DNA of 64,000 nucleotides. It comes from Aphanomyces cochlioides (Eukaryota > Oomycota > Saprolegniomycetes > Saprolegniales > Verrucalvaceae). Position 1 is the stretch's first letter; every line of letters starts with the position of its first letter. Location: the NCBI GenBank assembly GCA_019828595.1, contig JAHQRK010000007.1, forward strand, positions 1,116,001 to 1,180,000. The letters are read 5' to 3'. A program made the translations under genes and the position numbers. This document shows, one piece after another, positions 3,397 through 43,748 of the stretch. The notes below the pieces were generated by a model, which was not told the DNA's origin, ran no database searches, and was given only the letters and a program-made list of their open reading frames with translations.

Positions 3397-4549
3397 AGCT
3401 CCCCAAGTGTGTTTCCCTGCATCTAATAAGTTCATTGCTTTATTCGCTTGTCGTTCTTTCAGGTTCTGAGGCGCGGGGAATTCTCGCATGGACATAAAGC
3501 ATGAGGCAATCGTTGTATGGCCAGCGATGGACATTTGAGCCGAGTGAAATCAGTTTTATACCTTCTTGGACATTTCTCGAGATTTATGGTGACCGATGCC
3601 CCACCGCAGCTTCCGTCGCGTCTTCCATCTCTCTGCCAACCTTGTCAAGTGACGAAATCCTTCCATAAGATTCGAAGAAAGATCGTTCTCTCGTCATCTT
3701 AACAAACATCCATGTCATCATGAACCATCATCCAGATGGAACACCCCATGTCACGAACTGAAATCTCAGCGGTATACAAACATCAAGTATAATATTTAAA
3801 TAGTATTATATTCCAATCATAACAGTATTTAAATAGTGTGAACATTACATTGTCGAGTCGTCATCCAGCAAATCCAAGCTGCCAACCGATCTCGAATGCC
3901 GAGAAATTATACATAATCATCAATTTCAGCTAAGATGACGTGGAATACAAGCTAGAAATGTCCTGCTTGGAGAGATATCTTCCTCTTGATAGTACTTACA
4001 CTATTTAAAGTGTAGACGAGCCAGCTGCTCGTTCGTTCGTTCGAAACTGGTCCTCCAATGACGTCACTCTCCCAACAAAATTCTCTTTAGAATGTTTGTC
4101 ATTTGACAGAATGTTTGTATTACTCCAGTGCAGTTGGGAGCAAACGGCAAAATTGCACATGCCATGTCACAAACCATCCAAAGCACATTGGCATCCAACG
4201 ACATTCTGACCGCATTCAAAAAATCCCGCGGAGTCTTTCATAGCATGTCAGTTCTTCCAACGTGGGAGAAAAAGCAATCGACTGTCGAATGTCGAAGCTT
4301 CGACCCCAATCACACGAAACAGAGTATACGAAAATATTGAATTTATTTAAACAGGATATGATAATATACAGTAAAACTTAGATGAATTAGTCAAATGATA
4401 GTGATAAGATAAGGACAACTATTCACTTCTACAGGTAATTTACAATTCAAGCCTTCCGAAAATCTGGGTTGTCGCCGTTCGACTAATCGAGCAGACGCTC
4501 CTCTAGTGCCATCCTCCGACTCACGCGCTCTTACAGCGCCGCCACCGCC
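3397..4549. other. Intergenic, AT-rich, no supported gene
   Basis: No frame here has recognisable domains. The stretch 3780-4040 is AT-rich and carries repeated TATTTAAATAGT (around 3794 and 3828). The last 100 bases presumably hold the promoter and leader of the kinase gene. The open frame at 4128-4340 has no family features and is not called. Confidence 0.5.
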
Positions 4550-7144
4550 ATGATCCGCATGATGTCGTCTCATTCAATCACAATTGACGAAGACTTGAGT
4601 GCGCCGCCGACGCCGCCGTCGTCTTTGTCAACGTCACGGCCGTCCGTGCTGCGATGTCTTCCGTTTCTCATTTGTAGCGCCACGCTGGCTGTCGTCGCCG
4701 CACCGTTGACGCTCCTTTCGTCGTTTTTGGCCGCTCTATCGCGCAAACGCTTCGCGTCGTGGCATGTTTTGCTCCTGGAATGTCTCTGGGCGATGAAATG
4801 GCGTCTCCTGCGCTTTGTGAAAGCTCCCCAGGCGAAACCCACCGCGTGTGCTTTGTACTCCAACCCGTCGTATGGCACAGTGTTCTTTGGCGCGTGGAAT
4901 CTCCTCGATGTCGTCTTTGTGCTCGTTCCGGTGTCGCTCGTTGTCGCCTCAGTTTTGATCGTTTTCAATGTCGCCTTTGGCACTCTCTCGACCGCCACGA
5001 TCGCTATCGAGTCGACCGTCGCTGTTGTCGCTCTCGTCGGCGGTGCATTAAGCGCCCGATCGATCGTTTTCAATGGCGCCCTTCCCTTCTTCACGGCGTT
5101 TGCACTGCCGGAGACTCCCTTTGCGAGGGGAAACTACGCTATGCCTCAAACCCCAACCGACGGCGATGGGTTCCACACGTCGTATCATCTCGACGCCAAG
5201 CTCACGACGCTCTTGACGCCCAGTCGTTCCTTCCTCGCTGATCTCTTCCAGCGCTACACGAACAGCGTCGAGTCCACCGCGAAACGAGTCCAAAGGTGGA
5301 GCGATCCAACGCCAATGTTGCCCGTCCTGGACACGCCCATGTCGTCCGCCAGTGAAAGCGACGGATCTCCTCGTCCTCTTTCTTCCGATGAAGACGACAG
5401 CAGCGCCAGTTCTCCGCGTGATTTCGTCCGCCCGTCGTCTTCCTTGGCTCCATTGAACGTTCAAACTTGCGCCGCACTGATCAAGCGCAATTTCCAACGA
5501 CGAATCCATCGCCCCGCGCCTTCGCGCCGACAATCTCTTCACCGCCACCATTCCGCCATCGTTTCCTTTGCGCCGTCGGCTCCCCCTGCGGCGGACGTCC
5601 TCAGCGCTCCCGTCCCTCTGAGGCAGCTTGCCCCCATCAACACCAGACAACAAATTGGCCGTCGCCCTGCATCCGTGACGTCTTCCAGCGATGAGGAAGA
5701 CTTTCAAACACTGTGCGATACAGTCCTGAAGCGCTCGACGCCTCGTGCTCCGCATCAGCCGCTCCTGTCGCCGTCGTACGACCGACTGAGCCCTCGATCT
5801 AGCAGTCTTTCCTCGAGCAAAACGTCGTCGCGGCCTGTAAGTCGTAGTTTAGCAGGTGCTGCGCTCGACGACGAAGCGCTTCCGCCTTGTTTCACAGCGT
5901 TTGCTCCCAAGCGCGTCGCTCCAAACACATCGTTCCATCTCGTCGTCGGATGCCACTTGGCCCATGAGCTCGACGAAGTGAAGGAGCTTTTAGCAGAGGT
6001 TGGACAGCGTCCAGCCGCTCGGACACTTTCTCTAGACGACGTGTTGCCGCGGGGAACGCGCGTGACGATCTCTATCGACGTGCCACCGGGATTTCAAGTG
6101 CTGAGCCCGAGTTTGCACCAAACCATGACGTGGCGCGCTGACGTGGACACAATTGCGTTTCATTTATTCGCGCAAGGATCGTTGTTGCGGTCCAATGCGC
6201 CGCATTCGATCCTTGTCAAAGTTGTCGCGCAGTCGTTCGTTGGCGTGTTGCATTGCTGCGTCGTCGTCGGTCCATCCGGCGTCTCCAAGGCCCAGCAGTG
6301 CGAAGACGCTTGGTTCGACATGGAGCCTGTGAGCGACCCCTTGGAAGTCCTCGAGCCTGGCTACGAAGAGATCAACTACGACGAGCTGCGTTTGATCAAA
6401 TGGATCGGCCAAGGACACTTTGGCGACGCCTACTTGGCCGAGTACAAGCAAAAACAAGTCGTCGTCAAGATGCTGCGGAAGCACGACATCCCCGCGCTTC
6501 AGCATGAAGCTGCCGTGCTGTCCATGTTTGGCCATCATCCTTGTGTCGTTCCTTTTGTCGGCGCTTGCACAGACGCAGGTTCCCCGCTGGCAGTCGTGAC
6601 CGAGTACATGCCACTTGGGTCGCTGTCGTGTCTCGTGACTGCGCCAGACGCCGTGGCTCGCTTTCCATCGTCTATTCGTTCCAATATGCTTCGAGATGCA
6701 GCGAACGGTCTTGCCCATCTGCACAGCTCGGAGTTCCTCCACCGCGACGTCGCGGCGCGGAATTGCTTTGTGGATGCGCATGAACAAGTCAAAGTGGGCG
6801 ATTTCGGACTCGCGCGTCGTGGCTACGTCGTGGAATCGGCCGCCCCCGTCGTGGGGCCGCTCAAATGGATGGCTCCGGAGACTTTACAACCTCCGTATGT
6901 GTTTTCCCAAGCGTCGGATGTCTTTGCCTTTGGCGTGACGATGTGGGAAGTCTACCACGGCCAAGCCCCATATGCCGACTTGGATCCAATGCAAGTGGCC
7001 GTCCGCGTCTGTGAGGGCGACAGGCTTCCCCTCAACGGGACCGAAATCCCGCGACCTCACGTCGATTTAATCGCGCGATGCTTTGATCCCCAGCCGGACA
7101 AACGACCGAGCATGGTGGAAATTTACAACCATCTCAGTCACTAA
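4550..7144 (+). CDS. Transmembrane tyrosine-kinase-like (TKL) protein kinase
   Basis: 864 residues, single exon, start ATG 4550 in a GCCGCCACCGCC context. Two hydrophobic blocks (about residues 33-62 and 115-170) predict membrane insertion. A long Ser/Pro-rich linker follows (about 240-450, many SSSDE and SPR stretches). A beta-rich segment comes next (about 455-590, with RGTRVTISIDV and TMTWRADV). The kinase domain occupies about 608-860: glycine loop GQGHFG, ATP lysine in VVVKML, catalytic HRDVAARN, DFGLAR, APETL, and a W-E-V-Y helix. HRDVAARN is tyrosine-kinase-like, a known feature of some TKL kinases, so substrate specificity is open. A paralogue with the same order of parts lies at 34349-36738. 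It probably signals from a membrane. Confidence 0.88.
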   Translation: MIRMMSSHSITIDEDLSAPPTPPSSLSTSRPSVLRCLPFLICSATLAVVAAPLTLLSSFLAALSRKRFASWHVLLLECLWAMKWRLLRFVKAPQAKPTACALYSNPSYGTVFFGAWNLLDVVFVLVPVSLVVASVLIVFNVAFGTLSTATIAIESTVAVVALVGGALSARSIVFNGALPFFTAFALPETPFARGNYAMPQTPTDGDGFHTSYHLDAKLTTLLTPSRSFLADLFQRYTNSVESTAKRVQRWSDPTPMLPVLDTPMSSASESDGSPRPLSSDEDDSSASSPRDFVRPSSSLAPLNVQTCAALIKRNFQRRIHRPAPSRRQSLHRHHSAIVSFAPSAPPAADVLSAPVPLRQLAPINTRQQIGRRPASVTSSSDEEDFQTLCDTVLKRSTPRAPHQPLLSPSYDRLSPRSSSLSSSKTSSRPVSRSLAGAALDDEALPPCFTAFAPKRVAPNTSFHLVVGCHLAHELDEVKELLAEVGQRPAARTLSLDDVLPRGTRVTISIDVPPGFQVLSPSLHQTMTWRADVDTIAFHLFAQGSLLRSNAPHSILVKVVAQSFVGVLHCCVVVGPSGVSKAQQCEDAWFDMEPVSDPLEVLEPGYEEINYDELRLIKWIGQGHFGDAYLAEYKQKQVVVKMLRKHDIPALQHEAAVLSMFGHHPCVVPFVGACTDAGSPLAVVTEYMPLGSLSCLVTAPDAVARFPSSIRSNMLRDAANGLAHLHSSEFLHRDVAARNCFVDAHEQVKVGDFGLARRGYVVESAAPVVGPLKWMAPETLQPPYVFSQASDVFAFGVTMWEVYHGQAPYADLDPMQVAVRVCEGDRLPLNGTEIPRPHVDLIARCFDPQPDKRPSMVEIYNHLSH

Positions 7145-12319: not shown

Positions 12320-13610
12320 ATGCGCCTCGCTGGGTTTGACATTCATGTTATGGTAGCGGATGAAGCCCAAGAATATCCCTGTAAAGCGACAGAGTATCAG
12401 CACTCGATCCATCTTGACGGGAGAAGCGTGACGGCGTGGATTGAAGCGCAGCTTGGAGCCGAGTATTGGATTCAGTACAGGTACGACCATCCTCGCCGTC
12501 GATCATGTGTTCAATGCAGTTGGTGCGTAGATACAGGGGCCGGGCGAGTTTGACGACAAGCAATGCCCGCAGCATCAAGGTTTACATCGATGGGGAGCTT
12601 GTCGCTTGCAAGCTTGCGTTTCGAACAAGCAACGGTGTCGTCGATGTCAAGCACACGACGTCGTACGGGGCTGTTCGACCATTCAAATTTTGTCCACCCG
12701 AGTTTTCTTCCCAAGGTGAGAAGAACCGAAAGCGTCTGGCATCCACAGGCAGGTTAGCTTGCAAAGACGAGGAAAGGCTCTCAATTGTGCTGGTAGTATC
12801 GTCATCACTGTGCACAATGCGGTCGTTGGAGCTCCGGCGTATGGCCAAGACATTTCAAGTCCCGATTTCATCGACACGCTCTATGACACTTCGAAAATCG
12901 CATCGTTCGTGTCGGCGACGACGAGGTTTGTTTCTCTATCAATCATGTCTTTGGAGATTAAATGCAGTCTAGACTGGGCGACGTCGAGCAGCACGAGAGC
13001 AGCGTCGACACGTACGAAGTTGAAGACTTGGAGCTCATGGGCACGGGATGTTTCATTTACAAGACGCGAGGTAACAGCGATCCCATCATCTTACATTCCA
13101 GTGTCATCACAATATGAGCTAGACGACTTGATAGCTCAGGGCATTCTCTCTCCATCGCCAGCTCGGCGTGTTGTGTATGCACCGGATAGTCCTCTTCCAC
13201 CATGGTCAAACTGCACTGAGACCAAGGAGAAAAAGCTGCAAGGAGAACGCAACATGGAGCCCCCTCCAGTCGAAGGAATGCTCAATGATGACGGCATCCT
13301 CGAGGATAAGCAACTGAGTGTTGCGTCAAGCAGTCAGAGCGCAGAGGCGAGCCTCAGTTTGAACAGTCCTGAGGCTTTGGATAGATCTCTCGTGGAGGAC
13401 GGCGAAGTTCCGCTTTTTTCTCAAGCTCAGTCGGCGTCGTGGCTGGCAGTAGAATGGGCAAAGCAGTTCCAGAATCAATTGGGAGTTGACTACGAGTCGA
13501 CGCTTGATCTTTTCAAGGATGCAAAGATTGCCCAGGAGTTCCAGCACGTAGATGCCACCGATCAACTCGAGTGGATTCAGTGGACGCTGCTGCAATGGCG
13601 CTCCAAGTGA
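12320..13610 (+). CDS. DUF7918-like protein with recurrent C-terminal module
   Basis: Exons: 12320-12480, 12531-12752, 12797-12925, 12973-13070, 13102-13610; 1119 nt, 372 residues. The exon borders are supported by the paralogue on the minus strand at 16868-18184, which shares them: exon 3 is 129 nt in both. The N-terminal half (about residues 1-175) resembles the DUF7918 beta-sandwich family known from fungi: FDIHVMV, a W-I-E...YWIQYR strand, VYIDGELV, RPFKFCPPEF. The naming is from memory and moderately sure. An acidic Ser/Pro linker leads to the ~50-residue C-terminal module (residues 323-372) shared with four other genes nearby. The last intron is only 31 nt. Function is unknown. Confidence 0.7.
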
Positions 13611-13680
13611 GAGCTACAAGTCGACGGTACATTCAACTGATGTTGGCTTATAAGGGTCTAATGCACATCTATTCTATCGA

Positions 13681-16080
13681 TCATGGGGCCGCAAAATTCA
13701 AGTTGGCAACTCGACGGCTGAGGAATCCTTGCTGGAATGCCGACAAGTACTCGTAGCCGCCCACGGATACTAGACACTTGGCATTGTCTTGACCCACTGA
13801 GTGCTCAGCGTGTTCACGGAGGCAAATTCGGTCTGGAATTGAGTCTCTCGAGGGCACAGGGTCGAAAGAAACAGTCAACAAGCTTCCAGCTTCTCCAAAC
13901 TGTGCTGGATAGCTGACGAGCGTCGTGCCTGACGCTGCTCTGCGAGGGTTTCCAACATACGTCGGAGCATACGGCGCGAACGAATACGGCAATTGACTCA
14001 GTTCGAAGGCAAGCCAATAGGTTTCTGCGGCACCGTTGGAAAATTTCAATCGTGGCTGGTCGACAGTGATGAGCTCCAAAAGCACGTCGATGACAACAGT
14101 GGAGGCCAATTTGGACTTGTCAATGGCAACGAGGCTGGCGTCTTGTCGGACGGCGCTTTCTTTCTTCCACGCTTTGGATTCCTGCAGGGAATGAGACGGC
14201 GATGGCCCTCCAAAATCAAACTTGGTGTAGTTGAACGTCGCAATAAGAGCCTCGAGAGCCGTCCCTTGGCGCGATGCATCACTTCCAGATACTTTGAAAG
14301 TCGTGGGTTGATTGAGGAACGCCTGTCCAGAATTGGCATGCGCATGGAAGAAATATGTGCCGGTAGAGATGAAGGCTGGTTTTGACCACAGACTGGTTGG
14401 ATCTTCAAGAACGACTGAGTGGATATCAAGCAGAACGACGCGCTTTAACTTGGTATGCACTAGCGCGAGAGAGGCAATCATGTTGCTGCGGAGGTCTTTC
14501 ACTTGTGCAGTCGTGATCTTTCCCGTGATGACGAGATCGTTGCAACCATCCACGACGTGGACTTTGGAATCTGAGAGATGTAGTCCTTGGAGAATATCCG
14601 ATGGAAAATTGCCGAGGCAATGGTATGCATGGATCCAACCTTTGTAGCCAACTGTACGGAGTTCTTTCACAGCTGTGATGGCCAGGTTGACATCTTCCAG
14701 CCCTACCAGCCAAATAATCACGCCTTCATCGGCGGCAACGTGGCGCTGAACGGCCTCGGCGACGGCAAACGTGTCAGCAATGCGTTGTTCCATTGACCTT
14801 CGCTGTGCAGACGTCATGGCGACGTAGCCTCGTTGGTACATGCACTCCTGGGGACAACTTCCGTTGGGTTGCATGATTGGCGTCGGACCACGGGGACGAA
14901 GGCCAGCAAAGTAGCCAGGTATGTTGTTTGTCAATTCCTGCTTCTTGTCAGCATTGAACGAGTGGTCGTAGGCATTGACTGCGTCAGTTTTCGTGTATGG
15001 ATTAATGAGACGATTGCCATTAATATGGAGAATGTCTGCGCGACCGCTCTCAGGGAAAAAGTGAGCAATGTCACCGCAAACCGTATTGGGATCATGACCT
15101 TGACGGCCGCTACAATGAAGGAATTAAACGGGAAGATGCAGGAGCGCTTACCCAGCAGCAGACGTCCCATGGGGTGAAAAATTGTATGGCGACTGGCTCA
15201 ATTCATAAGCGAGCCAAAAGTTTTCCTTATCACCCCACGAGTAAGTGTATCGGTAGCGCCACTTGGTAATGAGAAACCAAAGGACGTCCATAGCGAGAGG
15301 ATGCTTACGTTTGTCAACGACAACAATGCTGGAATCTTGTTCGTGGGCGCCTTGGCTGTTGTATGGGAGTGACTCCAAGACGTGCTTTGATGGGTTGCGC
15401 TCCAAGTCGAAGCGAGAGTATTCAAAAATTCGCACCATTTCCTGGAGTGTGTTTTCCTCAATCTCGACACCACTGGGGAGCGTGAGCTTGTGCTTGCCGT
15501 TCAGGTACGAGTTTTCGTTGATTTCACGGTCGTAGAAAAAGATCGTTCCGATTGATTTGTACTCAGGTACGTCCCAGAGTGCGGCAGGATCCATGAAGAA
15601 GATATCGTCAGCGTCTAGCAAGATAGGTTGATCAAGACGAGTATGAATGAGCGCCAGGGGCTTGATATAAAAATTTCGGAAGTCCTTGGCTTGTTCGAGC
15701 GTGAGTTTGCCCGATTCGACGTACTCATGGCACACGTCGACGACTTCGATGTAATTGTCTGCCCGGTGTAGCAATTGCAATGACAGCGGAGAGAGTTCAC
15801 CAAGGCAGTGATATACTTGGATCAAATCAGTGTTGCCATAGCGTCGAAGTTCTTGGATGAGTGAAATCCCAATCGGAAGCATCGCGTCAAACATGGGGAT
15901 GACAAATCCCCGCTTGGCAGCGCGCGTACTTTTCGTCAGGAGTGGTTCGACTCTTGAGGACATGTACCAATAGGAGAACAGGACCCAGAAGATGATAAGC
16001 GCTAGAAATACCATCTGAAGGAGGCGAAGCGGCTTTCGCACGGCCCGAGCTTGGCGCCTTCCTTCTTCCACGCTCGCCAT
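13681..16080 (-). CDS. Tandem-domain Mnn1-like (GT71) glycosyltransferase
   Basis: Exons 16080-15152 and 15109-13681 (42-nt intron), 2358 nt, 785 residues. The TTG-led extension upstream of ATG 16080 was ignored. It is a type II membrane protein: basic tail, then a signal anchor at about residues 19-42. Domain 1 (about 57-340) has the DxD-type motif LLDADDIFF (D156-D159) and DSSIVVVDK; a Cys-containing stretch CGDIAHFFPESG follows. Domain 2 (about 435-730) repeats the fold with AYHCLG, ALVHTKL and QDASLVAIDK. The metal-binding motif is degraded there to LLDIHS (D538-S541). Without the intron the two halves look like separate genes; the splice restores one frame through GNRLINPYTK to the second domain. 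It probably mannosylates glycoproteins in the Golgi. Confidence 0.8.
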
Positions 16081-16867
16081 CGTTCGCCCACTGTGCAATT
16101 GGAATTTGAAACGGGAAGTCTACCATGCAGGACTTTCTCTCCCAAACTCTATATTTCATTAAAGTATTCATTTATAGAGTAAATATCTCCAAAGTTGCGC
16201 TCGCGTGACTTGCACCCTGACGATTCTAAGTGAATAAAATAGTAGATAGAATTAGTCTCTACATGGTGAACACAATGGCTTTGTATCGAAAGGTCGATAT
16301 GGTCATGGGAAGACTGCGTTGAATATTGCACGGCACTGACTAGTTTCACTTGGAATTCGTATGAACGAGATTTGAAGATGATGACCTCGGAATTCTAGAT
16401 TTTGATTGGTGGAAAGTAAAAATTGAAGCGATTTGATTGGCTATAATCCACGGTGTCGACCTCGACAGTTTCTGAAACCGTTGCACGTTACATCCCGACA
16501 GGATGACGATGCTCTCTCACAGAACTGCTTGCTCAGACGCGGTGCTGTTCAAAAGTTGGCTCAGATCTATTGCTAGAATGAAGAGAAAGTACATCCTGAA
16601 TTGGGCAAGAATCGTCATTGGAGTGGTTGACCAGGGGTGAACTTGATGTTAAAAGAGCTGAGTGGGCAAAGAGAACAGCAGATCCGCTGCTTCATCAAGG
16701 GCGTGCCTTCTGTAGTATTCGATTCGTCCTTTGTTTTAGTTGCAATGCATATCGCCCGGGTGTATTCCGGTCCAGTGGATTTCCACTGTCGGAGTACAAG
16801 ATGACGGAGGAAAAAGCCGAAGATATCCTCGAGATAAATTGGCATAAACAACTATGTACATGACAAG
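16081..16867. other. Intergenic; upstream region of GT71 gene
   Basis: No convincing coding frame. Two ATTGG (CCAAT-box) elements, GATTGGTGGA near 16404 and GATTGGCTATAATCC near 16434, lie 320-370 bp upstream of the GT71 start. The remainder is AT-rich and unremarkable. Confidence 0.45.
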
Positions 16868-18184
16868 CTACGCTGACACGGTCTTGAGATCTTTCAGCTT
16901 CCAGCGGACCCACCCCTCGCGATCTTCATCATCTATGGCTAAGAATAAGCGAGCAGTCGAGTCTTGACTGATGAGATCGAGAGCTGGGTAGTAAAGGCCA
17001 CCGAGAACTGACCGCATTTTTCGCATTTCTGTACAGGCGCGCTCAACAAACTGCACTGGGACGTTGTCCTCGTCGTCCGATACTGTCAAGTCCACGACTG
17101 TGCTTTTTACTGTTCTTGCTCTCTTGGTTGTCACCCTTGCTCTTGGCTGTTCATTGCGTTCTGGTGCTACTTGACTATCTGGTTCAACTTCAACTACTTC
17201 GCTTTTGACGCCTTCTAGTTTAATATTGATCTCATTGATGGGCGGAGCTAGAGCATCAGGTTGCTCAGACGGCGCCGACGATTGTCCAGAACTGGCTGCC
17301 TCTTTGATGCGTGGTATAATGCCCTCGAATTGCAGAACATCTGCGCAAAAGCAGTCGAGTTGACCTAGCATGGCGTTGTTACCTCGAGTTCTGTACATAA
17401 ATTTGAATGTGAACAGCAGCGGGCCCTTCTCACATACACATGATTCGTTCGTGCTGGCCTCCGTGGCAAACTTCGTCGAGCCAACGCTACACAAAGATGA
17501 TTTTCACAAGTATGGAATAAAACAGACTTCACCTTGTTGCAGCAGATAAAAATGAACCAAGCTTCGTATCGTTCCGAACTTCTCCGAGCAATGTCTGCCG
17601 CTCGTAATTCAACCCCATAAACTCGTGCAGGAAACGTCCTTCATACAGCTCGACGTCAATCCTATTTGACCACATGACGAAGTTTGTGTAACACTTATCT
17701 TACCGCCCGACACTGGATAAGACATCTTCACTGTCTTCCCCTTGATTTGAAAACGCTGGTGTGCAAAACTTGAATGGTGTTCGGGTGACTCTGTCTCCAT
17801 GGTGTTCAACCACCTCACATCGCTTTGGGAAGCTGCCGTGCCGTGAATCTGTTATTGCTCTCTGGCCCATCTGGCGGCCATCCACAAAGTAGAGAATGAG
17901 CCGCGCGTACTCTTCCGTCAACTTCGCCGTGCCAGTGTAACTATCGACTCTCACAGCGCATCGTCAACTGATAGGTTCTACCTGCACTCAATCCAATAGT
18001 CCACCCCGATGAGCGCTTCAACATACGCCGAGGCACTCAGTCCATCCGAAGCAAGGACAATCTTGTACTCTGGCGCTGGCACTGGCCATCCATCACGCTC
18101 GATCACTATCTTGACGTCAAAATCGGCAAATCGCATCAATCTTCCGCCAATTCTTGCCTCCGATAGATACTGTACAGACACCAT
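16868..18184 (-). CDS. DUF7918-like protein with recurrent C-terminal module, paralogue
   Basis: Exons 18184-17982, 17949-17704, 17661-17533, 17486-17383, 17340-16868; 1155 nt, 384 residues from ATG 18184. It mirrors the plus-strand gene at 12320-13610: FADFDVKIVI, YVEALIGVDYWIECR, LYFVDGR, TPFKFCTPAF and MYRTRG occur in the same order. The first intron is only 32 nt. The last intron (17341-17382, 42 nt) is a multiple of three without stops, so an unspliced form would add 14 residues. The C-terminus (330-384) carries the shared module, with L-x-x-YYPALDLI, DREGWVRWKL. The acidic Ser/Thr-rich linker includes KRAR-type basic patches that could be nuclear signals. Function is unknown. Confidence 0.72.
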
Positions 18185-18558
18185 AACCCCTTCACCCCTA
18201 AAGCTCTAACCCCTTAACCCGTTCCCCCCAAGGATGTAGAAAGGACATCACACTGGTTGCATGACGTTTCCGCTTCCTAGAGCGCCATGACGTCGAGAGA
18301 ATCCCTGCTGTAGGCATCTCAGAGGAGAGAAAGGTAAGTCTTCCATGCCCGGAGACTCTGGCATTGACTCTCAGTGAAAACTTTGAGTTTAGCTGTCGGA
18401 GTCTTCTCCTGGAGTGGTTTACAGAAGTTTTGAGAGCTCTAACGACGAGATTAATCATTGAACAACGCGGATGAGGCTTTGATAGCATTCGCGGTATATT
18501 CATAAAGGCGATATTTGGACTTGCAGACGCATTCCGGGCTTGAGAAGGAAGTCGAAGC

Positions 18559-19263
18559 TCAAACTTCGACTGGAGGCTTCGTGTTTTGCTGAAGTTTCCA
18601 CTGGAGCCAGCCCAAGCGGTCTTCAGGAGGAATAACATTGAAAGTGTGTGCAATTTGCGCTTGGGCGAGCAAGTCGAGAGCAGGGTAGTATTGATCGCCG
18701 AGACTTTGTCGCAATTCTTGGGCTTGTCGACATGCTTGAGCACATCCGTCTTCAGCTTGGACGACTGGTTTCGCTGCCGGGGAGTTGGGGACTTTGGCGC
18801 GAGAGATTGTTCGCTTCGTGGATTCGATGAGTTTTGGGTGCGTGTTGCGTTTCGATCGGGCGACTGTAAGATCGTGGCGAATGATAAACTGGTAGACCCA
18901 ATACCGGAGCGATTTTGATCCTCCGTGGAACCCGGGGTCGATCTCCAACGCCCGCGCCATGAGCATGCTTGTATCGACAGCGACCCCTTCTTTCTGTCGT
19001 TCTTTGTAGTATTCAAGGAGCTTTTCTTCGACCGTTGGATTCGTCACAGCGGGACCTGTGTGGATTGAAAAGCTGTTGGGATTCCTTTCGGCCCGAGCTA
19101 GCAATTTCGTCTTGTTGCGTACCCACCGCGTGATTTGCCCGGCGCTGATACCATACTTCTTGGCCACAACGTACTTCGAGCCGTCGGAGGCCTCCCATTC
19201 CTCAATAATGGCCACCTTTTGGCTCAGCGGGATGGACTTGCGGGCTTTCGCGCTCTTTGGCAT
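18559..19263 (-). CDS. HTH_psq / CENP-B-type DNA-binding protein with recurrent C-terminal module
   Basis: Single exon, 234 residues, from ATG 19263; the longer frame starts with a non-ATG codon. Residues about 10-50 form a psq-type helix-turn-helix (QKVAIIEEWEAS, VAKKYGISAGQITRWVR). Residues about 75-140 resemble the second, Tc5/CENP-B-type HTH (VEEKLLEYYKERQ, MARALEI, SLRYWVYQFIIRHDL). This double HTH is the DNA-binding half of pogo/Tigger transposases, but no DDE catalytic domain follows. Instead a basic linker leads to the shared module (178-226: LRQSLGDQYYPALDLL, EDRLGWLQWKL). I infer a domesticated transposase DNA-binding domain acting as a regulator. Confidence 0.82.
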   Translation of the reverse strand: MPKSAKARKSIPLSQKVAIIEEWEASDGSKYVVAKKYGISAGQITRWVRNKTKLLARAERNPNSFSIHTGPAVTNPTVEEKLLEYYKERQKEGVAVDTSMLMARALEIDPGFHGGSKSLRYWVYQFIIRHDLTVARSKRNTHPKLIESTKRTISRAKVPNSPAAKPVVQAEDGCAQACRQAQELRQSLGDQYYPALDLLAQAQIAHTFNVIPPEDRLGWLQWKLQQNTKPPVEV

Positions 19264-19858
19264 GCTTGAAAATGAACAAATTAAAAACTGAAGCATACAA
19301 AAACCAATATTAAATTTAAATGTGTCATTAAACTAAAGAAATCAGCATTACTGAACTGAGGGCATTTCCTGTGTCTGAAACAGCGCACCAAAAGGCGGCG
19401 ATTCGTGAAGAATACAAGGCTGTCATGGGCCTTTGGAGGTTTATCGAATGCCCTTCGATAGCTGACTGATGTGAGGTGCGATCACATATTGCACTGGCAA
19501 CAAACCGTCCTGAATATCAATACTTCCCACGTGAATCTGCTGGTTTTGAGCTGCAAACCGTGGGCGACAACATAAAACGATGGAATTCTGGCCACCATCC
19601 CGCCCTTGGATGACACAACTGAAAGCCTTCACATAACTTCGTGGTGGATTCACGACGCGACATAAAGGCACAAACTCATGACACTCACGAGCTAAGAAAT
19701 GCCACCATACCCTTGAAGCTATCGACCATGGCGTTTTCGCTTCGCTGACTCTGTTTTTCAATTAATCTGCGTGAATCTGTGGCGAGCCGTGAGATCCTGT
19801 CCATCATGCCTAGCTCCACTTTCCATTACTGACACTGTTTACAAGTTCACACTATGGA
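19264..19858. other. Intergenic between Kelch gene end and HTH gene start
   Basis: About 595 bp serving as downstream region of nothing in particular and upstream region of the HTH gene. The open frames here have no recognisable motif. Nothing else is seen. Confidence 0.4.
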
Positions 19859-22552
19859 TCATTTCTTGGTTTGCGACGACGACGACGCGAGCATACGTTT
19901 CCACCTGAGCCATGAAATGCGGCAATCGTGATCGATTTTCACGAACGCTTGGGCGATTCCATAATCTTGAACAAGTTCCTTTGAGGCGAAGTATTCGTAC
20001 TCGTTGGCTTGGCTCAATTCCTCCTTGCACGTTTCCACAAGCCGCAATGCTTCGGCGACAGTATTCAAGCGTCTGCGAACCCATAGCAGTCGATCCTGCT
20101 TGGGCATTTTGGCAAAAGAATGCGCCGTCGCGGGATCGTCAATCAGCTCGAACGCCATTGCGTACTGCTCCTCGTCGAGCGAATCCTTCAACTCGGACAT
20201 GGCGGCCTGCGGATTGCGGATCGCATCCGTTGGACGATCTTGAGGCGATGCCGTTCGTGGTGTTTGCACTTCTTTGCCACTCTACAGCAACGGATCAACG
20301 TCCATCTTTTCTAGATTCTCCATGGAAAGCCTACCTTGCGGACAACTGGCGGTCCTGGCGGGGACTCCTCTTGCGAGCTACAAATGACAGATAAGATTTG
20401 GTCAATCTGGACAGTGAGTACTTGACTGTGCTCTGCGAGAGGTCTGAATTGTCGTGTTTCTGGATCATTGCAAAGAGCACATCGACTTTTTCCGACGACT
20501 TGGCCATGCTTAAAGCGTTCTACATCATTGACATGAGCCATGAGCCGCTGTGGAGCTTGTGGCAGAGTTTCTCACCTGGTTGATGTCGACGGCGACCATT
20601 TGCAAGTCTCGGCTCTACCAAAAAGATATTGTTTGTCATTGTCATCGACATCGAAGACATACCAAGGAATCTTTGACCAATCCAGCAATGTGTTGGACAT
20701 TGATTTCAGGCGTTGCGACCTTCTCGGTGACAAGTTGACTCAATGTCGTGATTTTCTCGGTCATCTTTTGATCCTTCTCGGCCATCTTTTGATCCCTCTC
20801 GGCCATATCCTGCCTCAAAGTTTGGACTTCTTTGAGCAGCGCTGCTTGATTATCCTATGTAACGCACAAAATGCTGCTATCAGTACTTCCGAGGAAGAGA
20901 CTTACCATGACTTGTCGAAGTTCGATCGCCGTTATGGATGTATGATACTCTTCTTGGGTTTCTCGGACCTCGCTAAGGCTAGGAACTGCAGATGGAATGC
21001 GAGTGCGTTTCTGAGGAGCTTCTACGAATTGGCAAAGCATCAGCATTTCCTCTTGAGCAGTCTCGTCGTACCAGGAGAGTCGGAAGTACTTCGTCGGCGT
21101 TTTAGCAAACTCACTGGTGTGATCGGTGGCGCGGGAAGCGGCTTTGCTTGGCTCATTTCATGTTTAAGTTCTTGCGTCGTGGGTAGCTTCCAAGCCTTGC
21201 CAACGTGGACGCCAGTGTGCGGCATGTTGACTTTGCGGTGGGCAGATGTCGGGACGCCTTTTTTGCCGCCAAAGCAGATCAAAGTCTACAGATCCACAGT
21301 GAGCACGCAAATCAATGTCACAAGGAACAGACCGTCGCATCGAGCGAAAGCAGGCTTCCTCCTGTAAACTGAAGCGGCATCAAGCCTTGGCTAACATCGA
21401 CAGCTTCCTTCGTCTAACCGTCACAAAAAATTTGTTCAGGGCCTCAAAAATGGCACTAGAAGTACCTCGATGTCCCAAGCCCACGGTCGAAAGATAATAC
21501 CACGATCTTTGTTCTTCCCGCCGGCAACAATAAGCGTCTTGCCGTCAAGCCAAGCCATCTAAGAGCCACGATCGCCGTAAGAACTCACGGATTCCGACAA
21601 GAGTTAAACATACTGTGTGGTCAAAGCGCTGGATGCACGTGCGGTCGTCTTTTGCTGCTGGTCCAAATTGAATGTTCGTGCACGTGTGCGGCGAATCCAA
21701 GTTAAACTTGACAATGATAGACGGAGATTTGACCAAGTGGTCTTTGTAATCGGGGCCATACGATAGCCCACCATGGACGTAAATGTCTGTTCCTCGGGCA
21801 GCTATGGAAAAGAACGACCGCGCGAGGAATGGCAAATTGGTCACGTGTTGCGCTTCGAGGGTCTACAGACGATTCAATTTGAATACCACAAGGCAGTGTT
21901 GTTTTTGGCGTACTGTTGGGTTGAAGATGACCAAATCATTGTAGTCTTGAATCGATTTGCCGACCGATCGTCCGCCACACGTTACAATACGACCATCTTC
22001 GAGAAGAACTGTACTGTGTGCCAGTCGAGGTGGAATTACTCTTGGAGTAGTGTAATGAACGACTTCCCAATACGCACTCAACGTGACTGTGTCGATGCGA
22101 AAGCGTTGGATCTCAAAGTCGTCCTTGACAAACCATTCTGCTTTCTGTTGGTCGCACGTGCGGTTCCCGAACACATAAACATACTCGCCGACGGCAATCA
22201 TTGTGTGATTTCTATCATAAATTACATGCAAGACAAACAAGAGATCATACCGATTGTGTCCGGTATCTGGGGAATTGACCGATCGCAGTCGCTTCCAGTC
22301 GACAGACGCTTGCAACGTTTGGTCGGGCGCCACCGAATGATGTATCGTCATGAGCCACACGTCTTTTTGCTGCATATCCGCTTTGGACTCAACGTCGCGA
22401 GAGATTCCGCCATAAACTACGACCTGTGTCGGACTAAGCTGTGCAACTCCATGGGAGTAGCGATACGTCGGGTCTGGCGTCACTCCTGGCCGCGGCAGCG
22501 TAGCAGGGACCCAGTCGAGGCGGAACTCCATTGGAAATCGATTAATGACCAT
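19859..22552 (-). CDS. Kelch-propeller / coiled-coil protein ending in two recurrent modules
   Basis: Exons: 22552-21914, 21862-21614, 21558-21466, 21413-21333, 21285-21072, 21021-20906, 20854-20663, 20614-20576, 20547-20335, 20281-19859; 2259 nt, 752 residues. At least six Kelch blades are visible (VVVYGG, VYVFGN, RIVTCGG, IYVHGG, LIVAGG, LICFGG). The last sits across exons 4-5, which is what joins what otherwise look like two genes. A basic Pro-rich linker and a coiled coil (repeated AERDQKMAEKDQKM) follow. Then comes a segment with CALCNDPETRQF. The end (640-696 and 697-752) holds two tandem copies of the module shared with four neighbours. The intron at 20548-20575 is only 28 nt. The start could be ATG 22531 instead. 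Kelch/coiled-coil proteins are usually scaffolds. Confidence 0.68.
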
Positions 22553-22756
22553 ACCGTTAAAAAAAATAGAAAATAAACAATACAATATTCATTTTTGAAT
22601 CATTTCATACAATTTTTAAATGAATTTCGTTATTTATTACTTATTTCTCATAATCTATTTAGCAAGGGATCATGTTACACTATTTAGAACCAACCAATCA
22701 AAGACCGTAATTTGTGGAAAATGTCCAGCGACCAACATTAACGAGCGTCAGGAATA

Positions 22757-23350
22757 TCAGCGCTGCCGCAGTTTCCAAAGGACCCAGCCGAGCCGATCCT
22801 CCATTGCGACGACGAGGAATGCCCGCGCCGTTGTCGGATCTGTGAGCATGTCCACGACGTCAAAGTACTGTTCGTCCAAGGTCTCTCGCAGCATTTTAAC
22901 TTCGCGGCAAGCTTCCCTTGCAAAGTACAGGTCAGTGGCAATGTCGCTTTGGAATCGCGTTGGCTCGTCGAGTGGCGACGGTGGTGGCGCGATGGACTTT
23001 TGTTTGCGTTTTGGCGGAGTCGGTGTACTGCTCAGGCCGAAGTATATGGTTTTGCTCTCGATCGACAGAGTCTGGTATTCATTCCACCGCTTGGTATGTT
23101 GCGTCGAGAGGTGATGCCGATAGTTTTCAGGACGGAACGGTGCTTGGAAGATTTTGATCGACGTGTTGTGCCGCTTTCGCTTGGGAAGTTGACCGCCCGC
23201 GTCGCGTTCTTCACGGCCATAGACTGCGCAAAAGAGGCATTGAACCGCAGTCACCTCGTCTTTGCTGTCCTTGGAGCAAACCCTCAGACCAAACATCATG
23301 CCGTGCTTGTCTTGGAACGGCGTCGATCGTTTGCCCGTCGTCCGTGGCAT
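22757..23350 (-). CDS. BED-like zinc-finger protein with recurrent C-terminal module
   Basis: Single exon, 197 residues, ATG 23350. The N-terminal part has CLFC (about residue 39), a basic stretch KRKRHNTSIKIF, and YRHHLSTQH (about 81-90), a C2-H2 spacing like BED or related zinc fingers common in transposase-derived proteins. A Pro-rich basic linker (TPPKRKQK) follows. The C-terminus (148-197) is the shared module: LRETLDEQYFDVVDML, EDRLGWVLWKLRQR. No catalytic domain is present. As with the HTH gene 3.5 kb away, I infer a DNA-binding regulator built on a transposase-type finger. Confidence 0.78.
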   Translation of the reverse strand: MPRTTGKRSTPFQDKHGMMFGLRVCSKDSKDEVTAVQCLFCAVYGREERDAGGQLPKRKRHNTSIKIFQAPFRPENYRHHLSTQHTKRWNEYQTLSIESKTIYFGLSSTPTPPKRKQKSIAPPPSPLDEPTRFQSDIATDLYFAREACREVKMLRETLDEQYFDVVDMLTDPTTARAFLVVAMEDRLGWVLWKLRQR

Positions 23351-25051
23351 TGACTGTCAACGAAATAAAATACAATGATATCTTCTCCTCATATGAATGG
23401 CCATATAATAAAATAAAATGTTTAATTATATTATAGAGTGTAAATATGCCTCATTTTGTAGTTCATGGGCCAATCAACTTTCATCTTTGTGCCGAATATT
23501 GGCAGACAGATTACCTCTGAAAACCAAGTTTGGCACTAGAACAGCTTGCTTCGTGGCGCTCTAGCGCTTGGAACATGCCCCCCCACATGGCTGATCAATT
23601 CCCCAAAGTGCTGTCGACTTTTGCCCGCAATGAATTCAATGCGCCAATGGAGGGGGCTCGTTTGGGGGGCTAGAAAAACATTGTTTCCCAGGAGATTTCA
23701 CGGGGTAACACGCTGAGATCTTCAAACTATCAATGATGAAGACTTGAGTACACGTGTCGTTGAAGTTTTGGGGGGCACGAATTGTCCAGTGAAGCCCATG
23801 TACACTCGGCAAAGCTGGGAACTTTATGGATCTGGTGCTATTTCATCTCTGATGCCTCAGGCTTGATCTATCGCTTGAGTGATGTGTGGTTGATATCGTT
23901 TGTTGGGTTTACTCTTCAATGGCTTGGGGTTTCATGTTGGGTGGATTGTCCGAATTCGGACATTTGGTTCAAGCCAAAGGCTACACACGCTTGGTAATTT
24001 GCCGACCTAGGCACCTCGTGTTCAATCGGTGCAGAAGTCTGAAGAGTACTAGGAAGTACAAAATTCTCGGATTAACTTATTTTAGACCTCCCCATTGACA
24101 AAATTGGCTGGAGGCTCATGAAGGCGTAGAAGGAATGGAGACTACAAATATGTTGGCCTCAAAAGGCGAGGATTCTGCTATAGGACGCCAATCCTTGAAG
24201 ATCTTGCCGTGGATTTATTGCACAAGCTTGCCTTGGGAGTATGCACGAACCCAACACATATTCCAGATGATTCAAGCAATGAAGGATGCGTGGCTGAATC
24301 AAGTGTATGGTGTCGCACACTTGTTCTAACGGACATGAATATTTCCAGTCGCCCTTGCCGTTTTCGTCAATTTGTCTTTCAACGCCGACGACAAGCCACC
24401 ATGGAACTCTCTATCGCTCCATGCCAAATCGTCTCAGATAGCACAGCAAGAATAGAAATTTTCGGCCTGTCCAGCACTCTCACTTGACTCGAGTTGAAAA
24501 CTGCTCGCGAATCTCACGACTTATTGTTCCATTGTTTTGGGATGGACGTTTCGCGAACCCTCTCAAGGTGCACGGGACATGACTTTGGTCAAATCTCTCT
24601 TCTAAGCCGACACGCGTTGGACACCTCTTGAATCGAGGTGGCCGCACCAACATTTCCTTCCATGGTCCTTTGAACCACAACTTGCAGCCTTTAATCAATC
24701 CCAGCTGATCGATAGTCCTTTGCAATCCTGTCAAGTTTGAAAACGAAGCTTCAGGAGCGTCAGGAGCTTGACAGTTCGAGCCATAAAAGGAATGAAACCC
24801 ATCGTGGACATGGTTCAACTTGAAGGGGAAGAGGACATGTCATCTTTACGACTGGACAGATGTCGAATCTATCGACAAAATTATCTTGGTTTTAGTATAC
24901 TGGCAGTTACAAAATGTGAACTGACGACAGCTCCATACAAATTTCAAGTGAAAAGGCCAAGACATCCAACGACTATCAGTTGCAAATCGGTTACAGAAGG
25001 CATGGCGTGAATCTTTTCTTTCCGTGTCATTGATCAATTTGTCAACATCGA
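23351..25051. other. 1.7-kb stretch without a supported gene
   Basis: Several short frames exist on both strands (for example 24480-24818 minus), but none has recognisable motifs, clean splice sites or similarity to neighbours. The stretch includes the promoter of the first secreted-protein gene. It may contain degraded sequence; I cannot assign it. Confidence 0.4.
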
Positions 25052-26272
25052 ATGAAGTCTCTCTCGTTCCTCTCCGTGGTTGCGCTCGCTGTGACGGCCC
25101 AGACCAACAGCACAGCCAATACGACATGCACGTCACTCTACAGTCGCAAGAGCGCCATGTATCAAGCGCTGGCTGAGTTCTTCCGCTCCGACACGGTCCC
25201 AGAGACAACTGCGTACGTCTTGGATGAAACGCTGAGCTCGTTGCCGAAATCGTGGGCCACATGCATCGGTACCTTGGATCCTTCTGCGATTTCAACTGCA
25301 GTCTCAACCGCTTTTGTGGGCCAATCGACTTGCCTTGCCGCTGCTCCTACCTTGTTGCCTCTCTTTGAAACCAACTCATCGTCCACGATAGTATCGCCTG
25401 ACGACAGCCGTTCGTCGTGGAGCTCGTGGCTCAATGTGAGTGACATCTACTTCCAGCAGCTCTGCTCTCCACTTGTGGCGTCGATCCTTCCTTGCATCGA
25501 TACTGCAGTCCTCGCACCTATCTTTACTCAAATCAATGCCTCGTCCTGCTGCACTGACATGGTGAATGGCTTCCAAACCATCACGGGTCTCTCTCCTGAA
25601 AGTTTCTTCACGACTTTGCTCAAGCTTGGCTCGGATGTCGTGTGTGCCACGGAATCACCAGCATTTGATGGCTCTAGCAACCAAACCTGTGGCTACGCTT
25701 GGATCAAGAGCTTCACCGCAGGCGTGACATCGTGGCGCAACATCTCAACTTTGACAACTCGAATTTACACTGCCTTGCAAGTCCCCAACGACCAAGGATG
25801 CGCCGCTGCCAAAGGCAGTTCGTTCACATCCACGACTGGTGCGATTGTATCGAATCTGTTCACGTCGCCCACCATTCCTGGCTCGTGCGCTAAGCCCGCC
25901 GACAGTTTGCTGACGTGGGTGCGAGCCTTCCCTGGCTTAACTAATGCGTCATGGGGAGATGTCCGCATCCTCGATTTCCTAGAAGACGGCAAGTGCGTCA
26001 ACGGCACCACGATTTCCAAAACGTTTGGTCGCGACGCCTCTGAAGTTTACGCAGAACTCGGACTGCGCAAGAAGGATGTAGATGCCGGGTGCTTCCATTT
26101 GGCCAACGGTGGCCTTGGATCGTGTACGTTCTCGGATGCAACGACGAGTGCGTGGCCATCGTCCTCTTCGGGTAGCTCGTCAACCACCCCCAGCTCGGCA
26201 AAGTCTGCATCAAGCCCGCTTATGCTTTCCATGGCGCTCGCATGGGCACTTGTCGCTGTCGCTCTTATCTAA
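25052..26272 (+). CDS. Secreted Cys-rich, GPI-anchored-type protein, array copy 1
   Basis: 406 residues, single exon, ATG 25052. A signal peptide (residues 1-17) is followed by N-glycosylation sites (NSTANTT) and a Cys-rich body. Diagnostic segments shared by the array are WATCIGTLDP, CSPL...LPCIDT, SSCCTDM, NQTCGYAW, QVPNDQGCA, IPGSCAKP, DGKCVNGT and CFHLANGG. A Ser/Thr-rich stretch (about 365-385) and a hydrophobic C-terminal tail without a cytoplasmic part fit a GPI-anchor signal. The family is not one I can name; it lacks the compact six-Cys elicitin pattern. It is the first of five direct tandem copies. A cell-wall or surface role is inferred. Confidence 0.8.
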   Translation: MKSLSFLSVVALAVTAQTNSTANTTCTSLYSRKSAMYQALAEFFRSDTVPETTAYVLDETLSSLPKSWATCIGTLDPSAISTAVSTAFVGQSTCLAAAPTLLPLFETNSSSTIVSPDDSRSSWSSWLNVSDIYFQQLCSPLVASILPCIDTAVLAPIFTQINASSCCTDMVNGFQTITGLSPESFFTTLLKLGSDVVCATESPAFDGSSNQTCGYAWIKSFTAGVTSWRNISTLTTRIYTALQVPNDQGCAAAKGSSFTSTTGAIVSNLFTSPTIPGSCAKPADSLLTWVRAFPGLTNASWGDVRILDFLEDGKCVNGTTISKTFGRDASEVYAELGLRKKDVDAGCFHLANGGLGSCTFSDATTSAWPSSSSGSSSTTPSSAKSASSPLMLSMALAWALVAVALI

Positions 26273-27137
26273 CGTCGTATGAATAATGTATACTTCCTCG
26301 TGAACGCTTCAATTCATTCATTACAAACCAGGACAGGGGAGATCAAGGAAAGAACAAAGCATGCCACAGAGAACCAAGCTTGTAGTTGCTCCAACGTGTG
26401 AGAGATAACACGCTCTCATGTCGAGAACATGAAGCAGGGGCCATCCCTCGCCTGGAGAGAGAGCAAGAAAATTGGCGTGGCAATGGTTCAAAATCATTGA
26501 CCTGTGCATGGCCGCGTCAACAAATCCAGTGAATACCCCAAGAAGTGCCTCCATACCTCGTGACGAATCGATGAGCCCCCTCAGCGAAGCTGCACACCGT
26601 GGCAATGGCAAAGTTCATCCAAAACTTTTGAGGAAATCTACTTTGAGGCTCCAGTCGACGTAAAAATGCTAGCAGTCTGCTTGAAATGACAATAAAAAAG
26701 GATTCCAGCGTGGATAAGCCAGCAATTGCGTACATCTGAGCTGCCGTGGTGTTGTTGTCTTGTCCAGAACGTGTACGACATGTAGTCGACCAAGCACCAA
26801 CTTGCTTGACTCCAGATGAGAGCTTTTCAGGAGATGCAAATTTTCACACATGACTGAATTTACGATGGGCGGCACTACATACAAATGTTCATATTAAAGT
26901 CAAAGTTCTACAAAAACAGTTAGAAAAATGTTCATTTGATTTTACTATGAAAATGGTAGAAATTATTAAATTCAAAGTTCAAAATAAGCTGAAAATTGAA
27001 CCAAATTTCGCATTCCATACAGATTTCAAGTATAACTTCCAGGATGTAATTGTAGGTGCCGTCGTGAGACCCATTGTCGTCCTCAGTGCAGCGAAACTTC
27101 ATGAAGGTCGACACATTCTTGGACTTGCGACTTGGTG
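26273..27137. other. Intergenic between array copies 1 and 2
   Basis: About 865 bp. The part around 26900-27060 is AT-rich. No frame with recognisable motifs, and I do not see the opposite-strand relic found between later copies. Confidence 0.4.
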
Positions 27138-28364
27138 ATGAAGACGACCTGCTTTGCTGCGAGCGCGCTGGGCTTCTTGGCTTTGGCGAATGGACAGACC
27201 AATCAAACGAATTCGTCCAGCACATGCTCGTCGTTGGCAGACCCGAACAACGCCGTGACGGAGGTGCTCTCGTCACTCCTGTCGAAGAACGACGTAGTCA
27301 AAGTCGCTAAGATCTTGCCTCAATCATGGTCGAGCTGCATTGGATCTCTCGACCCCGATGCGATTAAATCGGCTGTGCTCAAAGGGTTTGCAACCCAACC
27401 GACTTGTTTAGCTGCTGGACAGATCTTGTTGTCGTGGTTCAATGGAATTCCAGCCAATACGTCCAGCAAGATTGAAATCCCATCGAGATATCTTACCGAC
27501 GACGACAGCGACAGCTCTTACAACTTTACCAATGCCGATTTGGTGTCATGGTGCACTCCCATCGGTGATTCCGTGCTTCCTTGTGTCACAGGGGGAGTTC
27601 TTTCCCCTGTCTTCGACCAAATTACGGCGAATCCATGCTGCTCCGCCATGGTATCTGAAATTAAAGCCGCTGTCGGTACCTCGCCCAAGGATTTCACCAA
27701 CAAGTTGCTCAACTATGCTACCAACATCGTCTGCAATACGCAAACGCCAGGCTTCAATGGCGCCGCCAACCAAACTTGTGGCTATTCCTGGGTCCAAAGC
27801 TTTACCAATAAAGACTCTTCGAGTCTCAAGTCGCGCATTCTGAATGCGTTGCAAGTTCCCAATGATCAAGGCTGCTCTGCTTTCCAAGGCAACGCGTTTA
27901 CAACGACGAAGGGCGTGAGCGTCTCCAACTTGTTCACCAAGCCAATCGTTCCTGGTTCATGCGTGAAGCCTGTGGATGACCTCTTTGGTTGGGTGCGCCA
28001 ATTCCCCATGTTGAGCAATCTCACGTGGGATGACGTGTCGATCCAAGCTCTCTTTGCCGACGGCAAGTGCGTCAATGGCAGCGCTGTCAACAAGGCTGTC
28101 TTGAGCTCGCTGAGCAAGAACGATGCTGCGGATTTGTACGAATCGCTTGGTGTGTCGTCGGACGATGTCGCTGGTGCTTGCTTTCACATGTCCAACGGTG
28201 GCTACGGCAAATGCACCTTTGCTGGCGAGTTGAAAGACGTCGTGCCTCAAGTAAGCACGGCCACGACGACTGCGATCCCAACAACGACTCCCAAATCGTC
28301 GATTGATCTTGCGACTGCTTCGTTGTTTGTATCCACCGTTGCAGTCGTCGCGCTCACTTGGTAA
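27138..28364 (+). CDS. Secreted Cys-rich, GPI-anchored-type protein, array copy 2
   Basis: 408 residues from ATG 27138; the longer frame begins with TTG 27132. Signal peptide at about residues 1-19, then the same order of blocks as copy 1: WSSCIGSLDPDAI, WCTPIGDSVLPC, ANPCCSAM, NQTCGYSW, QVPNDQGCS, VPGSCVKPVDDL, DGKCVNGS, CFHMSNGGYGKC. A Thr/Pro-rich stalk (TTTAIPTTTPKSS) and a hydrophobic tail suggest a GPI anchor. It is more similar to the three decayed downstream copies than to copy 1, especially in the stalk, so copies 3-5 probably derive from a copy-2-like ancestor. Confidence 0.83.
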   Translation: MKTTCFAASALGFLALANGQTNQTNSSSTCSSLADPNNAVTEVLSSLLSKNDVVKVAKILPQSWSSCIGSLDPDAIKSAVLKGFATQPTCLAAGQILLSWFNGIPANTSSKIEIPSRYLTDDDSDSSYNFTNADLVSWCTPIGDSVLPCVTGGVLSPVFDQITANPCCSAMVSEIKAAVGTSPKDFTNKLLNYATNIVCNTQTPGFNGAANQTCGYSWVQSFTNKDSSSLKSRILNALQVPNDQGCSAFQGNAFTTTKGVSVSNLFTKPIVPGSCVKPVDDLFGWVRQFPMLSNLTWDDVSIQALFADGKCVNGSAVNKAVLSSLSKNDAADLYESLGVSSDDVAGACFHMSNGGYGKCTFAGELKDVVPQVSTATTTAIPTTTPKSSIDLATASLFVSTVAVVALTW

Positions 28365-43720: not shown

Positions 43721-43748
43721 TCACCAGGCCAGGTCTTGCGTGTAATAC

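Follow-up and report, generated by a model that had tools for sequence, protein, structure and literature searches.

Within a 64,000-nucleotide stretch of the genome of the oomycete Aphanomyces cochlioides (contig JAHQRK010000007.1, positions 1,116,001 to 1,180,000; hereafter the window), a module of approximately 50 residues occurs in six copies that end five genes within 11 kb in total, and this module is remotely related to the domain at the C-terminus of ORF1 of PIF/Harbinger transposons. With a probability of roughly 0.55, the module represents a relative of the ORF1 C-terminal domain that the host has domesticated and that was spread over five proteins, where it most likely docks a protein of the DDE_Tnp_4 type. 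The analysis shows the remote homology itself, the transposon context of the relatives of the module, the concentration of the module at a single locus, and the conservation of one carrier, a protein with helix-turn-helix (HTH) domains, in three other species.

All six copies are in frame at the coordinates listed in Table 1. A preliminary description of this DNA had placed every copy at the very C-terminus of its protein, and this stands for five copies, in which the stop codon lies 0, 0, 0, 8 and 9 residues past the module end; the remaining copy, the first in the Kelch protein (W4, or Kelch copy A), instead precedes its tandem partner (W5) by 12 residues. When each copy was held out and scored against a profile of the other five, all six scored between 29.6 and 76.0 bits; among 10,000 shuffles of each copy the best scores were 9.9-15.7 bits, and none matched the score of the real copy. 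These data confirm that the six segments share a module, as had been described. An AlphaFold2 model of the W3 module contains four predicted helices at a mean predicted local distance difference test score (pLDDT) of 85.8, which agrees with the earlier proposal of a helical module; the fold was also set beside that of the MLLE (PABC) domain, the domain of 6h7b.

The relationship to ORF1 was measured with 10 window-type modules, namely the six from the window, two from contig C13 and two from orthologues. Comparison of these with 16 ORF1 modules in hhalign gave 90.6% with a P of 1.3e-6, and a repeat with trimmed alignments gave a P of 1e-6, compared to 0.0025 for the best of 300 column-shuffled ORF1 profiles and 0.25 for the reversed profile (alignments A3 and A6 omit locus L033, the frame of which contains a stop). 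Moreover, the six-copy profile placed 19 of 23 ORF1 modules, several of them near-identical, above all 5,400 shuffles. The top-scoring window copy against the ORF1 modules was W4 (26.7 bits with the hidden Markov model (HMM) of the ORF1 modules); a genome search with W4 reached ORF1 copies at an E of 9e-4, a genome search with an ORF1 module reached W4 at an E of 0.006, and the window, searched by tblastn with the ORF1 protein P0009 as query, gave W4 at an E of 4e-6. The last two helices predicted by AlphaFold2 span residues 31-39 and 42-57 in W3 (9 and 16 residues) and residues 281-289 and 292-309 in ORF1 (9 and 18 residues), and the aligned phenylalanine (F37 in W3, F287 in ORF1) and tryptophan (W48 and W298) are each predicted to stand seventh in their helices, i.e., in the same register. 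In an unrooted tree of 25 modules, from which the ORF1 rows L033, L037 and L041 were omitted, the 10 window-type copies fall on one side of a branch (support 91/97), with W1 on a long branch, a grouping that fits a single origin followed by local spread. The window modules resemble the end of ORF1 in their C-terminal position, their remote profile similarity and the register in which their last two predicted helices stand; however, they mostly end in W-x-W-K-L where ORF1 has W-L-x-R-Q, and the window proteins have no detected Myb domain or adjoining transposase.

The relatives of the module outside the window were examined in their own surroundings. One ORF1 module gave 44 matches in the genome, one of which is W4; 30 of these loci were cut out, and two others among the 44 (L006 and L008) were examined as well. 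Myb_DNA-bind_3 exceeded its cut-off at the start of all eight full-length ORF1 proteins that were scanned, and a convergent transposase was present downstream of ORF1, within the fetched 1.5 kb, at 30/30 loci (weakest E 5e-6) and was likewise found at L006 and L008. One ORF1-adjoining transposase was scanned and matched DDE_Tnp_4 with 75.6 bits. The ORF1 loci are PIF/Harbinger elements, in which ORF1 ends with the module. Searches of the window with three transposase queries yielded a best E of 0.7 and no match at E ≤ 1e-5, an ORF1 query matched the module only, and Pfam scans of the module-bearing proteins gave no Myb_DNA-bind match. The genome as a whole bears a heavy PIF/Harbinger load, with 994 candidate DDE_Tnp_4 transposases, 150 of which were scored and found, without exception, to exceed the cut-off.

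The module had been presented as undescribed and as fitting no named family, and this claim was not supported: in addition to its kinship with ORF1, the module matches the Pfam family PF24769 (At2g29880_C), which is its nearest named family. Four of the five window module proteins match PF24769, all below the curated cut-off of 26 bits, and isolated window-type modules match at E ≤ 1 in 6 of 10 cases, compared to 0 of 8 shuffles. In A. invadans, the protein that is probably orthologous to the HTH protein (P0007) scores 24.5 bits in full length and 28.1 bits, over the cut-off, with the module alone. Judged by profile alignment, the window module is classed as a remote relative of PF24769 rather than a member, as it stays below the cut-off yet aligns beyond chance. 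Module and family share a C-terminal position, agree in length and correspond over profile positions ~11-47; the differences are the scores of the window copies, which are under the cut-off, and the N-termini of the window proteins, which are not Myb/SANT. The preliminary description had named two outcomes that would count against it, a match to a known domain family and a failure of the six segments to outscore shuffled controls; because the module matches PF24769 and is remotely akin to the ORF1 C-terminus, the former has partly come about, while the latter has not. The observation of a shared module is confirmed as sound, and the claim of an undescribed family falls in part.

In Harbinger transposons, the C-terminal part of ORF1 binds a separate transposase, and in the zebrafish Harbinger element this contact also brings the transposase to the nucleus, while ORF1 binds the ends of the element. 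Catalysis and DNA binding thus reside on two proteins that must meet, and the module is therefore proposed to be a docking domain for DDE_Tnp_4. On our analysis, the Harbinger link points to the docking of a DDE_Tnp_4 transposase, or of a domesticated relative of one, more specifically than the chromatin or heteromer system that had been suggested earlier. We infer the direction of transfer, the local spread, the docking, its partner and its purpose as follows. An ORF1 C-terminal domain would have entered one Aphanomyces locus and shed its Myb reader, and local duplication would then have spread the module onto five other proteins: the two DUF7918 proteins, the Kelch protein, one that has a Tc5/pogo-type DNA-binding domain and one that has a BED-like finger. 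Each of the five would dock a DDE_Tnp_4-type protein via the module, and this partner could be a Harbinger nuclease that has been domesticated or else the transposase that resident elements encode. The docked protein would be taken to, or kept from, the targets that are recognised by the carrier's own N-terminus.

A more far-reaching version of this proposal, which we put forward tentatively as a possibility, is that the five proteins, with four kinds of N-terminus, form an adaptor set born at this locus that captures the DDE_Tnp_4 transposase of a very abundant element family, as decoys or carriers. If so, decoys would police Harbinger elements and carriers would bring a domesticated nuclease to several targets, and the set would represent domestication of a transposon interaction interface at the level of the module, not of a DNA-binding or catalytic part. 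To our knowledge, described cases of transposon domestication chiefly concern DNA-binding or catalytic domains, along with entire Harbinger Myb/nuclease pairs. The part reused here is apparently the partner-docking domain alone, which at one locus is joined both to host domains and to pieces of a different transposon superfamily, and in the literature searched no description was found of this domain on five proteins at one locus without its Myb partner. Oomycetes may offer a setting in which the conversion of transposon interfaces into host adaptors can be studied.

The proposed docking has published counterparts. According to extracts of PMC7282668, contact between the Myb protein and the nuclease is mediated by the C-terminal part of the former and the N-terminal part of the latter in rice Ping, in a reconstructed zebrafish element and in HDP1/HDP2, and the C-terminal part of ALP2 suffices to bind ALP1. 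Extracts of PMC9710019 describe repeated co-domestication of Harbinger Myb/nuclease pairs, and the available part of PMC2836001 describes a division of labour between the Harbinger proteins. The domesticated Harbinger Myb proteins ALP2, HDP2 and NAIF1, in which the C-terminal part binds a Harbinger-derived nuclease (PMC7282668 and PMC9710019, both in extract), are the closest comparison; the same docking is proposed for the window proteins, by analogy with the published interaction mapping of the Ping, HDP2, NAIF1 and ALP2 C-termini. However, ALP2, HDP2 and NAIF1 derive from a whole Myb protein, whereas the window proteins carry the C-terminal part on other N-termini.

Several results weigh against a docking module of Harbinger origin. 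In the reverse comparison, the ORF1-module HMM lifted only 2 of the 6 window copies above 12,000 shuffles, and the breakpoints of the first two predicted helices differ between W3 and ORF1. No window copy reached the curated cut-off of PF24769 (best 24.0 bits), and this family fits ORF1 poorly, with matches to 2/16 ORF1 modules at E ≤ 1, to 0/19 ORF1 database proteins at E ≤ 0.1 and to one of eight scanned full-length ORF1 proteins (L006, E 0.042); the window module, PF24769 and ORF1 therefore form a chain of remote links. With regard to docking, extracts of PMC7282668 report that ALP2 is bound by neither half of ALP1 alone and that ALP proteins failed to bind those of Ping, which is read there as divergence of the interfaces, and a relocated domain may therefore have changed its partner. 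Likewise, in the available part of PMC2836001, Ping ORF1 left the localisation of the transposase in yeast unchanged.

Conservation in other Aphanomyces species was assessed by a protein search in which 8,000 candidates were scored. Probable orthologues of the HTH protein that retain the module occur in A. euteiches, A. astaci and A. invadans. In the A. astaci and A. invadans proteins, respectively, 32/49 and 30/49 residues of the first HTH, 32/67 and 33/67 of the second HTH and 27/52 and 28/52 of the module are kept, compared to 7/25 and 1/23 in the linker, where 45-46 columns are gapped. Among the matches listed, the BED-like finger and DUF7918a proteins occur in A. euteiches only. In this species the locus tags of the BED and HTH proteins are two apart (LEN26_008201/008203 and AeMF1_012620/012622), and the neighbourhood is therefore probably kept.

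Three other explanations were weighed against a docking module derived from ORF1. The module could be a self-association domain through which the five proteins form homomers or heteromers, in which case the Harbinger kinship would reflect dimerisation of ORF1. This is conceivable, if rather doubtful: the module is common to five neighbouring genes, is present in tandem in the Kelch protein and is predicted to be a compact helical domain; however, the mapped partner of the Harbinger Myb C-terminus is the transposase, as given in extracts of PMC7282668. An unlikely alternative is that an ancient helical domain of the cell, that of PF24769, was gained independently by ORF1 and by the five host genes and functions in a manner unrelated to transposase. 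Such an origin would account for the better fit of PF24769 to window-type than to ORF1 modules and is compatible with the grouping of the window-type modules in the unrooted tree, but beyond the cluster and its duplicate on C13, the examined loci with true modules are all Harbinger ORF1 beside a transposase (30/30, plus two).

Far less probable still is that the cluster is debris, i.e., functionless duplicated fragments of transposons and genes. In its favour are a partial duplicate of the 3' part of the Kelch gene on C13, at 77-85% DNA identity, a modelled intron of DUF7918a that depends on a weak donor, and a provisional junction in the Kelch gene. On the other hand, the module-bearing frames are open, the probable orthologues of the HTH protein in three species conserve both the DNA-binding domains and the module, and the BED and DUF7918a proteins occur in A. 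euteiches.

Gene models for the five carriers (Table 1) were built from reading frames and splice signals, and they largely uphold the N-termini that had been assigned to them. Both DUF7918 models, once spliced, exceed the Pfam cut-off of 27 bits for that family (gene a, 36.4 bits; gene b, 51.9 bits), and the A. euteiches protein P0006 contains the sequence of the last two exons of DUF7918a, with a different junction. The HTH protein, previously described as HTH_psq/CENP-B-like, exceeds the cut-offs for CENP-B_N (33.3 bits, cut-off 21.2) and HTH_Tnp_Tc5 (28.2 bits, cut-off 22.2). It shares these two domains with Tc5/pogo-type transposases but ends in the module, and no DDE_1 catalytic domain was found among the Pfam matches of the HTH protein or of its three database relatives; two of its genomic relatives (L079 and L082), when scanned with Pfam, are transposases with HTH_Tnp_Tc5 and DDE_1. 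Both modules of the Kelch protein lie within its last modelled exon, and its N-terminal assignment stands in part, with Kelch_6 over the cut-off (35.1 bits, cut-off 25.3) and the coiled coil judged by eye. The BED-like finger matched zero Pfam families at E ≤ 10 and is called BED-like by eye; at least one of the two transposase-type readers that had been proposed, that of the HTH protein, is thus borne out. With DUF7918, CENP-B_N/HTH_Tnp_Tc5 and Kelch_6 all over their cut-offs, the module is indeed common to different readers.

Table 1. Module copies and carrier genes, in positions of the window; bits are scores of the held-out copy against the profile of the other five
Feature	Position	Strand	Description
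Module copy W1	13458..13607	+	C-terminus of DUF7918 protein a; 34.9 bits
Module copy W2	16871..17035	-	C-terminus of DUF7918 protein b; 53.5 bits
Module copy W3	18586..18732	-	C-terminus of HTH protein; 76.0 bits
Module copy W4 (Kelch copy A)	20066..20200	-	Kelch protein, first of tandem; 40.4 bits
Module copy W5	19889..20029	-	Kelch protein, second of tandem; 29.6 bits
Module copy W6	22760..22909	-	C-terminus of BED-like finger protein; 58.8 bits
DUF7918 gene a	12320..13610	+	Exons 12320-12480, 12537-12752, 12797-12929, 12968-13070, 13102-13610; third donor weak, uncertain
DUF7918 gene b	16868..18184	-	Exons 18184-17982, 17940-17704, 17661-17533, 17486-17383, 17340-16868
HTH gene	18559..19263	-	Single open frame: CENP-B_N, HTH_Tnp_Tc5, linker, module
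Kelch gene	19859..22552	-	Multi-exon by frame analysis; junction near 21,114 and start codon provisional
BED-like finger gene	22757..23350	-	Single open frame; close A. euteiches proteins P0001, P0002

The distribution of the module in the rest of the genome was surveyed with several queries, the counts of which are lower bounds; the initial stage of the search retains few candidates, and further copies are therefore possible. With the module of the probable A. invadans orthologue as query, the 76.2-Mb genome as a whole gave nine matches at E ≤ 10, of which six are the window copies, two lie in the partial Kelch-gene duplicate on contig C13 and the last is a Harbinger ORF1 C-terminus (E 0.5). 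When the BED, HTH, Kelch A, DUF7918b and DUF7918a copies were used as queries, window-type modules were found only in the window and in the C13 duplicate, and the remaining matches were ORF1 C-termini or weak ones that were unlike modules on reading. Three loci (L004, L015 and L072) were rejected as module loci in this way, being weak matches that are not module-like when read.

The C13 duplicate (L061, C13:286001-293500, positions 4245-5970) partially duplicates the Kelch gene in its 3' half and has both tandem modules; it has 77-85% DNA identity to 19632-21164 of the window and is recorded as a 211-residue protein (P0004), and the Kelch part was unmatched in it. A Harbinger element (L054, L060) lies ~10 kb from this duplicate, and frames that are pogo-type by eye lie closer. 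A further repeat was seen at C3:961376-1002280, where part of the HTH domain has twenty weak matches (each E 0.72), mostly ~1.94 kb apart, which sit in open frames of 394-597 codons and make up an array of some tandemly repeated gene or element. The BED-like finger also recurs ahead of other C-termini, namely a carboxymuconolactone decarboxylase (CMD) domain that is over its cut-off (L075, 2038-2238) and an enoyl-CoA hydratase-like stretch that is below its cut-off (L076, 1906-2142), which suggests that the finger itself has been shuffled.

Other genes in the window were noted in passing. Two adjacent Mannosyl_trans3 (PF11051) genes (13684-16119, minus strand) sit between the DUF7918 genes. 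Two open frames on the plus strand (25034-26269 and 27105-28361) have similar starts that resemble signal peptides by eye, and neither gave a Pfam match at E ≤ 1e-4. Lastly, a 1,182-codon open frame (44547-48092, minus strand) runs antisense to a 1,450-codon frame with FYVE domains (43746-48095, plus strand).

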